In this document: one piece after another, positions 170 to 51,167 of the stretch
How the letters are laid out: each line of letters starts with the position of its first letter
Numbering within the stretch: position 1 is the stretch's first letter
NCBI RefSeq assembly: GCF_900112285.1
Contig: NZ_FOKZ01000020.1
Coordinates: 1 to 64,000, forward strand
Direction: 5' to 3'
Origin: Polaromonas sp. OV174
GTDB taxonomy: Bacteria; Pseudomonadota; Gammaproteobacteria; Burkholderiales; Burkholderiaceae_C
Length of the DNA stretch: 64,000 nucleotides
The notes under the pieces: model-generated
Seen by the model: the letters and a program-made list of their open reading frames with translations, nothing else
Databases searched by the model: none
Told to the model about the DNA's origin: nothing
Translations under genes and position numbers: made by a program

Positions 170-479
170 GGGCAACAACCAGCAAAAAATGCCCGCACCT
201 GCCCCGCAGCAGGGCTCAAGGAGCCGCCCCAGCGCGGTCGTGCCGCGCCAAAACCATGATCGACTGCCACGGTAGCAACGAAAACAGCAAATTACCAAGC
301 TCATCGAGCCTCAAATCCTTCTGCCGCGCAGACTCCTAGTAGCGGTTATTCTTGAGCGGTTTTATCGGCGCTTGCGGATGACGGGCTTTAGCCTTGAGTC
401 CTGCAAGCGCTGTCGCTATTGATTTGCTAGCTTCCTGCGCCCGATCCTATTGGGCTAGAGGCCTGTTTTGTTGAGAAAA
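170..479. other. Intergenic stretch after the transposase remnant
   Basis: No convincing gene is seen in these 310 bases. The last 65 bases are a copy of the family 1 repeat (412-474) that ends just before the start codon of the exporter gene. The middle part may contain the end of the insertion element, but no inverted repeat or target duplication can be shown from one side. Confidence 0.5.
412..474 (+). repeat. Family 1 interspersed repeat, copy A
   Basis: This is one of the best copies. It has the left hairpin GCTATTGATTTGCTAGC, then TTCCTGCGCCCGATCC, TATTGGGCTAGAGGCC and a T-rich end. It lies immediately upstream of the exporter gene at 480, so it probably forms part of its 5' untranslated region. 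The same blocks recur at about a dozen other places in the window. Confidence 0.8.
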
Positions 480-1235
480 ATGGCCTTTCCGCTGATCACC
501 GACCCCTTTTTCTACGCCGTCGCCATTCCCGCCGTGCTGATGCTGGGCATCAGCAAAAGCGGCTTTGGCGCCGGCTTCGGCTCGTTGGCAGTGCCGCTGA
601 TGGCCCTAGCGGTCACGGTGCCGCAGGCCGCCGCGACCTTGATGCCGCTCTTGCTGCTGATGGACTTGCTGGGGCTGGCGGCCTTTCGCAAGGACTTCGA
701 CAGGAAGTTTTTGCGCTTTCTGATTCCCTGTGGTCTGGTCGGCACCGTGATAGGCGCGCTGCTGTTCAAGCTACTGGACGCCCAGCTGGTGGCCGGCCTA
801 GTGGGCGGCTTTACGCTGCTGTTTCTGGCGCAGCGCCTGCTGTTTCCGCCCCGGCCCGACAGCCCGCCGCCGCCCAAATGGCTGGGCGCGTTATTGACTG
901 TGACCTCGGGCTTCACCAGTTTCGTGGCCCATGCCGGCGGCCCGCCGCTCAGCGCCTATGTCATTCCGCTGCGGCTCAGCCCCGTCAAGTTCACCGCCAC
1001 CATGGCGGCCTTCTTTTTCGTCATCAACCTTTCCAAGTGGATTCCCTACGCCTGGCTGGGCTTGCTGGATACGCGCAACATGGCGACCTCGCTGGTGCTG
1101 CTGCCGCTGGCGCCGGTCGGCGTCTGGATAGGCGTGCGCCTGGCCAGGCGCATCAGCCCGCTCTGGTTTTACCGCGTGCTCTACAGCGGCATGTTGCTGA
1201 CCGGCATCAAGCTGCTGTGGGATGCCTTGCGCTAG
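480..1235 (+). CDS. TauE/SafE-family sulfite/organosulfonate exporter-like membrane protein
   Basis: This 251-residue protein is almost entirely hydrophobic and has about eight predicted membrane segments. Near the N-terminus it carries the family-like GISKSGFGAGFGSLAVPLMA segment, and a related G-x-x-S-G-F block recurs in the second half (TSGFTSFVAHAGGPP). That two-fold repeat is typical of TauE/SafE (DUF81) permeases, which export sulfite, sulfoacetate or related anions; the substrate cannot be told here. The ATG at 480 was preferred to an in-frame TTG at 468, which falls inside the repeat. The gene stands alone and converges with the antiporter gene. Confidence 0.8.
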   Translation: MAFPLITDPFFYAVAIPAVLMLGISKSGFGAGFGSLAVPLMALAVTVPQAAATLMPLLLLMDLLGLAAFRKDFDRKFLRFLIPCGLVGTVIGALLFKLLDAQLVAGLVGGFTLLFLAQRLLFPPRPDSPPPPKWLGALLTVTSGFTSFVAHAGGPPLSAYVIPLRLSPVKFTATMAAFFFVINLSKWIPYAWLGLLDTRNMATSLVLLPLAPVGVWIGVRLARRISPLWFYRVLYSGMLLTGIKLLWDALR

Positions 1236-1240
1236 TGCAT

Positions 1241-1300
1241 CTTGCTACGAAATAGATAGCTGTTTGTGCCAGTCCTGCTTGAGCTGGTGGCCTTTTTGTC
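1241..1300 (+). repeat. Family 1 interspersed repeat, copy B
   Basis: It contains TTGCTACGAAATAGATAGC, then a diverged centre, then GAGCTGGTGGCCTTTTTG. It fills the 71-base gap between the convergent exporter and antiporter genes. It is more diverged than copies A, G and H in the middle, but both ends align. Confidence 0.7.
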
Positions 1301-49222: not shown

Positions 49223-50220
49223 GTGCGTTAAACAATGGGCCGGAAGAAATCCTGATGGCCGTGCCGCGCGGTTTTTGTGCCGGTGTGGATCGCGCGATTG
49301 AAATCGTCGAGCGCGCGCTGACCAAGTTCGGCGCGCCGATTTACGTGCGCCACGAGATCGTGCACAACACCTATGTGGTCAACGAGCTCAAGGCTAAGGG
49401 CGCGATCTTCATTGAAGAACTGTCCGACGTGCCGCCCGGCGCCACGCTGGTGTTCAGCGCCCATGGCGTCAGCAAGGCGGTGCAGCAGGAGGCTGTGGCA
49501 CGTGGCTTCCAGATCTTTGATGCCACCTGTCCACTGGTGACCAAGGTGCACGTTGAAGTGGCCAAGCTGCACAAGGAAGGCTACGAGTTCATCATGATTG
49601 GCCACAAGGGCCATCCGGAAGTTGAGGGCACCATGGGCCAACTCGACCAAGGTATCCACCTGGTGGAAGACGTGGCCGACGTGGCGCGCATTGCCCCGCT
49701 GCAAACCGAAAGGCTGGCGGTGGTGACGCAAACCACGCTTAGTGTGGACGATGCGGCCGAGATCAGCGCCGCCGTGAAAGCACGTTTTCCGCTGGTGCGC
49801 TCACCCAAACAACAAGATATTTGCTACGCCACGCAAAACCGCCAGGACGCCGTCAAGGTGCTGAGCCCGCAAGTCGATATCCTGATCGTGGTCGGCAGCC
49901 CGACCAGCTCGAACAGCAACCGCTTGCGCGAGCTGGCCGCCAAGCTGGGTACCGAGGCCTATATGGTCGACGATGCCAGCGAGTTGCAGGAAGCCTGGTT
50001 CGAGGGCAAGAGCCGAGTCGGCCTGACGGCGGGCGCCTCAGCCCCTGAGGTTCTGGTCAAGCAGGTGATTGACCGCATCCGCGCCCTGGGCGCAGTGTCG
50101 GTGCGCAAGATGGAAGGGATAGCGGAAACCATCAAGTTCCCGTTGCCCAAGGGTTTGAAGGTCGATGCGCAGGGCCACACGCTGAACGTTGGTGACAGTC
50201 AGTTGCATGATCTGGGCTGA
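49219..50220 (+). CDS. ispH: 4-hydroxy-3-methylbut-2-enyl diphosphate reductase
   Basis: This 333-residue iron-sulfur enzyme does the last step of the MEP pathway, giving IPP and DMAPP. Cluster cysteines lie in PRGFCAGVDRAI, FDATCPLVTKVH and KQQDICYATQNRQDA. Active-site histidines are at VRHEIVHN and FSAHGVS, and TxxGASAPE is seen as LTAGASAPE. Together with ispE in this window it supports an MEP-dependent organism. Confidence 0.96.
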   Translation: MSALNNGPEEILMAVPRGFCAGVDRAIEIVERALTKFGAPIYVRHEIVHNTYVVNELKAKGAIFIEELSDVPPGATLVFSAHGVSKAVQQEAVARGFQIFDATCPLVTKVHVEVAKLHKEGYEFIMIGHKGHPEVEGTMGQLDQGIHLVEDVADVARIAPLQTERLAVVTQTTLSVDDAAEISAAVKARFPLVRSPKQQDICYATQNRQDAVKVLSPQVDILIVVGSPTSSNSNRLRELAAKLGTEAYMVDDASELQEAWFEGKSRVGLTAGASAPEVLVKQVIDRIRALGAVSVRKMEGIAETIKFPLPKGLKVDAQGHTLNVGDSQLHDLG

Positions 50221-50225
50221 AGCTG

Positions 50226-51167
50226 ATGCTCAATCGCTATCAAATTGAGAGCTGTCAGCGCTCGTTCCATCAGGCCTACAGCCACTTTATTCATCAAACT
50301 CCACTGTGGAAGCTGCCCGGCCAGGCCCTGGGCGTGGCCTGCGACCAGATCTGGCTCAAGCTCGAGCATCTGCAGACCGGCGGCAGCTTCAAGGCGCGTG
50401 GAATGCTTAACCGCCTGCTGTCCCAGCCCATTCCACCCAGCGGCGTGATCGTGGCTTCGGGTGGCAATGCCGGCATTGCCACTGCGGCGGCGGCCCGGGC
50501 GCTGGGCGTGCGCTGCGAGGTGTTTGTGCCAGAAAACTCAACCCCCGCCAAGCGCGCCAAACTCGCGGCGCTGGGCGCGCAGGTGATGGTGACGGGCGCG
50601 GCCTATGCCGATGCGCTTCAGGCCTGCTTGGCGCGCCAGCAGCAAACCGGTGCGCTGCTGACGCATGCCTATGACCAGCCCGAAGTGCTGGTGGGCGCCG
50701 GCACGCTGGCGCTTGAAATCGAAGAGCAGGGCGGCTTGCCGGACTCGGTGCTGGTCAGTGTGGGTGGCGGCGGCCTGATTGGCGGCGTGGCCAGCTGGTT
50801 CGAGCAGCGCAGCCGCGTGGTGGCGCTGGAGCCCGAGCTGGCGCCCACGCTATTCCAGGCCCGCGCGGCCGGCCAGCCGGTGGACGTGCTTGTCAGCGGC
50901 GTAGCGGCCGATTCGCTGGGCGCCAAGCGCATAGGCGAGCTCGGCTGGCAGGCCACCCAGGCTCATGTGCGCGATGCCTTGCTATTGACCGACGAGGCCA
51001 TACGCGCGGCGCAGCTGTGGCTCTGGAAAGAGCTCAAGCTGGCGGTTGAACCCGCCGCCGCCTTGCCGCTGGCGGCTTTGCACAGTGGCCGCTATGTACC
51101 GCGAGCAGATGAGAAGGTCTGCCTGATCATTTGCGGCGCCAATGTCGATCCGGCCAGCCTGAACTGA
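50226..51167 (+). CDS. Threonine/serine dehydratase-like PLP enzyme
   Basis: This 313-residue fold-type II PLP enzyme has the PLP-lysine motif GGSFKARGMLNRLL, the asparagine loop ASGGNAGIATAAAARALG and the phosphate-binding loop SVGGGGLIGGVASW. Such enzymes deaminate threonine or serine, or racemise serine. It lacks the regulatory ACT domain of biosynthetic IlvA, so a catabolic role or serine racemase activity is possible. Residues 3-22 (NRYQIESCQRSFHQAYSHF) are coded by a sequence resembling a family 1 repeat. It lies 5 bases after ispH. Confidence 0.85.
   Translation: MLNRYQIESCQRSFHQAYSHFIHQTPLWKLPGQALGVACDQIWLKLEHLQTGGSFKARGMLNRLLSQPIPPSGVIVASGGNAGIATAAAARALGVRCEVFVPENSTPAKRAKLAALGAQVMVTGAAYADALQACLARQQQTGALLTHAYDQPEVLVGAGTLALEIEEQGGLPDSVLVSVGGGGLIGGVASWFEQRSRVVALEPELAPTLFQARAAGQPVDVLVSGVAADSLGAKRIGELGWQATQAHVRDALLLTDEAIRAAQLWLWKELKLAVEPAAALPLAALHSGRYVPRADEKVCLIICGANVDPASLN
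50232..50292 (+). repeat. Possible family 1 repeat, copy M, at the start of the dehydratase gene
   Basis: It contains TCGCTATCAAATTGAGAGC, then TGTCAGCGCTCGTTCC, then ATCAGGCCTACAGCC. The spacing and right half fit the family, but this stretch also matches the natural N-terminal helix of the protein family, so chance is possible. Confidence 0.45.

Follow-up and report, generated by a model that had tools for sequence, protein, structure and literature searches.

What are the short repeats that recur in either orientation, within genes as well as outside them, along 64,000 nucleotides of the Polaromonas sp. OV174 genome (contig NZ_FOKZ01000020.1, positions 1 to 64,000; hereafter the window, meaning the whole stretch that was analysed)? 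A first-pass annotation, made from the letters of the window alone, listed 11 clear and 2 doubtful copies of a unit of ~57 bp, read as two consecutive hairpins, and knew of no named family to which they could be assigned. Here, we confirm that this repeat family is real. The element is, however, ~70 bp long (model positions 5 to 74) rather than ~57 bp, and its sequence features suggest, with about even confidence on our part, that it is a double-stranded DNA site, present in several hundred copies per chromosome and selected for binding by a putative lineage-specific protein or complex.

The family was detected with an ungapped 74-column matrix, seeded with 21 copies that can be aligned over 80 columns without gaps; its training set consisted of 20 stretches, each of 20 kb, from outside the window. 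The matrix recovered all 13 places listed in the window, and in the sampled stretches of the same genome it found 60 copies per 400 kb, compared to none in the reversed sequences at a threshold of at least 10 bits. At 10 bits, the reversed controls gave 2 matches in the set from the relative G014; from 12 bits upwards, none of the scanned sets gave any. The matrix matches and their gene context, including the in-gene copies placed in 1.24 Mb, bear out the description of a dispersed family with copies on either strand, inside genes as well as between them, and in frame within proteins. By extrapolation, the 4.53-Mb genome would hold ~680 copies, an approximate figure given that the sampled contigs were hand-picked. 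At 14 bits or more, the matrix found 72 copies in 380 kb of a second genome of the genus (G024) and 77 in 400 kb of a third (G014). A first covariance model recovered 10 of the 13 window copies at E<1e-3, missing those at 23101, 42003 and 43002; in the whole genome, 150 of 2669 first-look candidates were scored, and all 150 reached E 4e-4 or better. Even the loose pattern GCTAT(3-10)ATAGC(2-12)GCGC matched 126 times, a count that takes some places twice (on both strands), versus 2 for the reversed pattern. A scan of the whole window against Rfam at gathering scores returned only tRNAs, and one copy searched at E up to 1 matched no Rfam family, in line with the absence of a named family in the first-pass annotation.

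The logo of the 39 copies scoring at least 36 bits is sharp over model positions 5 to 74 and reads, in order, W-tract, GCTAT, seven mostly A/T bases, ATAGCT, TGCGC, about 10 variable bases, GGGCTA or GCGCAA, AGGCC, TATTT and AAAATT. Over these 70 bp, the information content amounts to ~58 bits (249 copies), and the GC content of full-length matches is 0.32-0.56. The two halves of the element are rigidly spaced: of the 193 left halves that have a right half close by, 188 share identical spacing and another 3 fall short of it by one base. Another 209 left halves lack a right half, but 166 of these overlap a full copy and only 43 stand alone, compared to 35 in the reversed control; with lone left halves near the control level, a separate half-element family was rejected. 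The strongest couplings between columns mostly involve neighbours, within A/T tracts in which the step TpA is avoided. Positions 16-17 carry AA in 107 copies, TT in 72, AT in 57 and TA in 6; TA occurs 5 times at positions 17-18, and positions 60-61 carry TT in 181, AA in 49 and AT in 16 copies. Avoidance of TpA is a signature of A-tracts with a narrow minor groove. By arithmetic on the logo, the A/T tracts are centred near positions 6.5, 17, 60.5 and 71, which puts them on approximately the same face of the helix.

The two-hairpin architecture of the first-pass annotation is not supported. Neither stem covaries, pairing being near independence at all 21 pairs tested, and no compensatory changes of the kind that mark REP-type hairpins were found at these pairs. 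For example, G9-C25 is paired in 85.9% of the copies, exactly as expected from the column frequencies, with 34 A-C mismatches. An RNA structure was rejected on these counts and because RNAalifold recovered only the 5-bp left stem; a conserved paired stem combined with strand-specific placement, as in structured RNAs and intrinsic terminators, was not found. The couplings between adjacent columns in TpA-avoiding A/T tracts, together with the lack of covariation in the stems, are instead pointing to a double-stranded DNA motif rather than a folded RNA.

To follow the element at orthologous sites, we compared 80 loci surrounding the gene for the M16 peptidase. The element is present at the start of this gene in 48 of the 80 loci, at the site between the genes for a ferredoxin and peptidyl-tRNA hydrolase (pth) in 18 of the 80 (both genes were found together in 28), and at a LolB-like gene in 13 of the 18 loci where that gene was found among the 80 searched. 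Thirty loci are without any match in 520 kb, and the other 50 hold 173 matches in 914 kb. The ferredoxin/pth site is non-coding and was compared across 14 sequences, namely, the window and L091-L103, each with a match of at least 14 bits (the Polaromonas locus L104, which has no element, was left out). Its high-information columns are 76% identical, its low-information columns 35% and its flanks 29-30%; unrelated copies from the Polaromonas sp. OV174 genome, for comparison, are 71% and 32% identical in the high- and low-information columns, respectively. The motif columns are thus held while the variable columns and flanks look saturated, so that at this site the motif seems to have outlasted the saturation of its surroundings. 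The first-pass annotation had held that the same sequence at orthologous loci of distant genera, by simple conservation, would speak against a repeat family. Some sites are indeed shared with distant genera, but at the measured non-coding site the motif alone is conserved. Because the motif and not the whole sequence is conserved there, maintenance is suggested rather than plain conservation, and the element is apparently maintained in place rather than spread as a jumping repeat.

The distribution of the element is both broad and patchy. The covariance model found a match in 25 of 37 genomes of the genus (Polaromonas sp. OV174 included) and in none of the 24 genomes that represent other families of the order, although these zeros are soft, at most 76 candidates having been scored per genome. 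A strict pattern matched at least once in 91 of 299 genomes of the family Comamonadaceae, representing 50 of 141 genera, and at least 10 times in 55 genomes by hand count, whereas its control gave 3 matches in total over the 299 genomes. Sister species can be discordant, with strict-pattern counts of 136, 0 and 210 in the genus g96 and of 79, 146 and 0 in the genus g113. Over 61 genomes from the genus of Polaromonas sp. OV174, a relaxed pattern matched 0 to 430 times, 46 of them having any match; counts of a few are meaningless here, the reversed control reaching up to 5 in most genomes and 19 in one. Genomes with intermediate values of 10-40 are present, and the loss of the element across the genus has the look of decay, not of a switch. 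The strict pattern also occurs in 22 viral contigs, 17 of them with at least 14 bits, at places that may be either phage genes or host flanks. In two of the contigs (L241:3567-3640 and L246:1344-1417), the element lies in frame in what appear, by eye, to be the signal peptides of small lipoproteins, which may be of the Rz1 type.

Genomes also differ in the version of the element that they carry. The second block is GGGCT-like in two of the three genomes and GCGCA-like in the third, columns 47 and 50 differing among them with p of 8e-20 and 3e-22, and the pair 47-50, which marks these dialects, is the non-neighbour exception near the top of the column couplings. Even at a single orthologous site, the block can be GGGCT or GCGCA, depending on the species. 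Judging from the match by letter and spacing, fragments of two dialects have already been published, in 2017, as separate spaced motif pairs that the accessible part of the source leaves without explanation (PMC5217627). One, ATAGCT(N)22CAAAAG, with 125 copies in Polaromonas naphthalenivorans CJ2, fits positions 21-26 and 49-54 of the element in its GCGCA dialect; the other, GCTTAT(N)5AAGCG, with 114 copies in Acidovorax ebreus, fits the core of the Acidovorax/Comamonas consensus (PMC5217627). The published pairs share the intergenic, convergent-rich placement of the element, but the accessible part of that paper describes neither one 70-bp element nor its range, dialects or use in coding sequence (PMC5217627). 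No description of the whole 70-bp element was found among open-licence papers.

To survey where the element lies, 217 copies scoring 20 bits or more were assigned to gene contexts with a home-made gene caller, over 1.24 Mb drawn from three genomes of the genus. Convergent gene pairs hold 44 copies for 128 pairs, tandem pairs 88 for 754 and divergent pairs 10 for 125. A further 67 copies lie within genes, 42 antisense and 25 sense, and 8 more at the edges of stretches. Replication polarity and even spacing were weak or absent.

In the window, several of the 13 copies are intergenic. The copy at 411..480 (+; 64.1 bits with the matrix, 54.5 bits with the covariance model) lies upstream of a TauE/SafE-like gene (480-1235; Pfam), the one at 1240..1309 (+; 44.8 bits) fills the 71-bp gap between convergent genes, and the one at 30033..30102 (-; 60.6 bits) fills the gap between the convergent ferredoxin-like and peptidyl-tRNA hydrolase genes. 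A weaker copy at 23100..23169 (+; 31.8 bits), missed by the covariance model, shares one intergenic region with the copy at 23221..23290 (-; 55.2 bits; covariance model 56.9 bits), the two being oppositely oriented and ~50 bp apart. Within genes, antisense copies are found at 2546..2615 (+; 43.8 bits) in the gene for a Na+/H+ exchanger-TrkA_N protein (1307-3142, -), which shows no extra length (residues 17-382 on Pfam profile positions 3-373), at 5367..5436 (-; 50.2 bits) in the gene at 4909-6054 (+) and at 17762..17831 (-; 47.2 bits) in the SURF1 gene. The two lowest-scoring copies, whose matrix matches begin at 41991 and 42999, are the weak one at 41993..42062 (-; 24.6 bits) within the gene at 41158-42801 (-) and the weakest one at 43001..43070 (+; 21.1 bits), antisense within the gene at 42833-43708 (-). 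The remaining copies stand at gene starts. The copy at 27035..27104 (+; 50.1 bits) makes up the first ~24 codons, a signal peptide by eye, of the M16 peptidase gene that begins at 27033; that at 34234..34303 (-; 65.7 bits) lies at the 5' end of a lipoprotein gene, which we take to be LolB-like, and encodes LFIAGC, resembling a lipobox by eye; and that at 50232..50301 (+; 56.3 bits) is in frame at the start of a gene for a pyridoxal phosphate-dependent enzyme (50226-51167), the Pfam PALP domain of which starts at residue 20. Near the start of the orthologue of another window gene (21300-21857), the element is present in Ramlibacter, a Burkholderiales metagenome-assembled genome, Acidovorax and Comamonas (L120, L121, L129 and L162, respectively); the window gene itself has no matrix match at that start.

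In-frame copies become part of the proteins. In Polaromonas, Rhodoferax, Acidovorax, Comamonas, Simplicispira and one Ramlibacter, the signal peptide of the M16 peptidase is written in the AT-rich codons of the element, whereas loci without any element encode a signal peptide of similar length in GC-rich codons. The GC content at third codon positions of the last 25 codons before the mature protein is 0.43 at the 35 loci whose anchor bears the element versus 0.76 at 28 loci without any element, that of the gene body being 0.82 in both; 13 loci with elements elsewhere but none at the anchor, which is probably misplaced in them, were set aside, and 4 had no anchor. In SURF1, the element occupies a shared place in 3 of the 8 orthologues covering the region (two others are partial) without adding length, and UbiA and enoyl-CoA hydratase likewise show no extra length at the element. 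MoeA differs in that 10 of 24 orthologues hold the element in a loop with ~24 extra residues. Among the MoeA proteins without it, those of G029 and G003 keep the length with no scoring element, that of G074 has a longer loop and eleven have a shorter one. In a DUF3418 protein and a Mur ligase, the Pfam spans also leave room for an insertion. A pure insertion model is contradicted by SURF1, UbiA and enoyl-CoA hydratase, and a pure in-place model by MoeA, the only protein for which orthologous sites lack the length of the element; hence, the copies seem to have arisen by more than one route and then to have been held in place. The MoeA genes of L211, L212, L215-L218 and L220 also contain a second matrix match (24-31 bits), in opposite orientation, ~140 codons upstream of the loop copy. 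The Rickettsia palindromic elements, copies of which sit in frame within proteins, had been named as a precedent in the first-pass annotation. The analogy is a partial one: in-frame copies do occur, and an insertion of this kind is seen in MoeA alone, but the element has no covarying palindrome, no near-identical copies were seen in the samples and several copies add no protein length.

The main rival of the binding-site explanation is a drive of the kind that maintains uptake signals, whereby DNA bearing the element would be preferentially taken up or recombined and copies would persist where they do the least harm. Uptake signal sequences, USS in Pasteurellaceae and DUS in Neisseriaceae, occur in hundreds of copies, with dialects and with favoured frames for the copies in genes, and USS combine a core with phased A/T tracts. 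The element resembles them in each of these respects: it is a motif of high copy number that differs in dialect among species and lies both within genes and outside them, it has a USS-like core with phased A/T tracts, and most of its copies within genes share one reading frame (19 of the 25 sense and 33 of the 42 antisense copies). Its preference for the 3' ends of genes and its absence from some close relatives also fit such a drive, as does the presence of ComEC in 22 of 22 and of ComP-family pilins in 31 of 31 genomes tested. Nevertheless, we judge this explanation to be clearly less likely than the binding site, since ~58 bits over 70 bp is far above known uptake motifs, the density is only about one copy per 5-7 kb, and the tested competence genes are alike in genomes with and without the element. 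In G014 (C12:394405-395484), the ComEC competence domain falls into two blocks ~280 bp apart in one open frame, which suggests an inserted stretch.

A mobile repeat of the REP or MITE type, spread by a transposase such as RAYT and now decaying, is less probable still. It would account for the ~24 extra residues in MoeA, and both copy number and placement at gene ends resemble those of REP/BIME repeats. Moreover, with 108, 70 and 71 copies sampled from three genomes, the highest pairwise identities (0.84, 0.76 and 0.83) exceed those of column-wise Markov samples (0.75, 0.75 and 0.76, standard deviation about 0.02) in two of the three, by ~5 standard deviations in Polaromonas sp. OV174 and ~3 in another genome, so some copying may have occurred. 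Yet no near-identical copies were found in these samples, in which a few pairs could be missed, and the best-scoring copy had no match above 86% over 57 of its 70 bases in the whole of its own genome. Length changes among copies are scarce, motif columns are held while neutral ones saturate, and, unlike in REP/BIME repeats, there is neither a covarying hairpin nor an association with a RAYT-like gene. Polaromonas sp. OV174 has one Y1_Tnp match, but this domain occurs in 36 of 37 genomes of the genus, including those without an element match, and the copy in Polaromonas sp. OV174 is flanked by a different inverted repeat; a RAYT partner was thus rejected. The single match, a gene for a RAYT-like protein of ~240 amino acids (L073:4731-5581), has on either side the inverted repeat GGGTCAGATTCCAATTA of 17 nt, which may be its own REP, and a partial look-alike of the left block of the element lies just downstream, near position 5508 of L073. 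The BRE repeats of Bordetella are likewise short betaproteobacterial repeats that sometimes lie within genes, but they measure 75-91 bp, have 69% GC, are often in tandem and number at most 29 per genome; dispersed copies with a GC content of 0.32-0.56 set the element apart from them, a distinction that follows the accessible description of BRE rather than its sequence (PMC3110155). Least probable is a bidirectional transcription terminator or RNA hairpin. Enrichment between convergent genes and a GC-rich block followed by a T-rich stretch would suit one, but the stems do not covary, Rfam has no match, nearly a third of the surveyed copies (67 of 217) lie within genes in both orientations, and those in tandem gaps are split between the same and the opposite orientation (47 and 41).

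Under the binding-site explanation, one protein complex would bend or wrap the DNA around the phased A-tracts and would make its GC-rich contacts at GCTAT/ATAGC, TGCGC and GCGC/GGCC. The likeliest role would be in organizing or relaxing the chromosome, as a nucleoid-type or topoisomerase site, because convergent gene ends are preferred locations and few copies lie between divergent genes. A change in the factor would switch the copies to a new dialect together, and its loss would let them decay together. In the meantime, the binding constraint would impose unusual codons on coding copies, some of which may have been co-opted as signal peptides or loops.

Several observations weigh against this explanation. 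None of the candidate factors tracks the presence or absence of the element, be it HU/IHF (23 of 23 genomes), H-NS (20 of 22, the two genomes without it carrying the element), or ComEC and the ComP-family ComP_DUS in the 22 and 31 genomes mentioned above. The spacing of copies is close to random (variance/mean 0.77, 0.96 and 1.07, near Poisson) and the two strands differ weakly in copy number (123 lagging, 86 leading). A chromosomal role hence draws no support from a domain-like pattern. The test of maintenance takes only sites of at least 14 bits and excludes decayed ones, such as L104 with none, and the coding sites are less clear, with identities of 84% in the motif, 54% in variable columns and 60-80% in the flanks at the LolB-like gene and of 78%, 54% and 41-72% at the M16 gene, because protein constraint also holds the flanks. 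Finally, copies within conserved coding regions fit an uptake-like drive at least as well, the raised top identity in Polaromonas sp. OV174 hints at some copying, and MoeA carries the element as ~24 extra residues.

If the element is indeed a binding site, comparison of sister species should reveal the missing factor, since dialects are shared and some sister species are nearly element-free. How genome-wide motifs are maintained would thereby become a directly testable question, through pairs of element-rich and element-free sister species. Signal peptides that retain AT-rich codons in several genera further illustrate that constraint at the level of DNA can shape protein sequence. We know of few bacterial sites of such length and information content that occur in hundreds of copies. 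More tentatively, and with less confidence than in the binding site itself, we propose that up to one-third of the sampled genera in the family may possess a chromosome-wide address system, in which A-tract-phased sites of ~70 bp and ~58 bits would be read by a putative trans-acting complex, shift dialect together, decay together upon loss of their reader and, meanwhile, donate signal peptides and loops to the proteins of their hosts.

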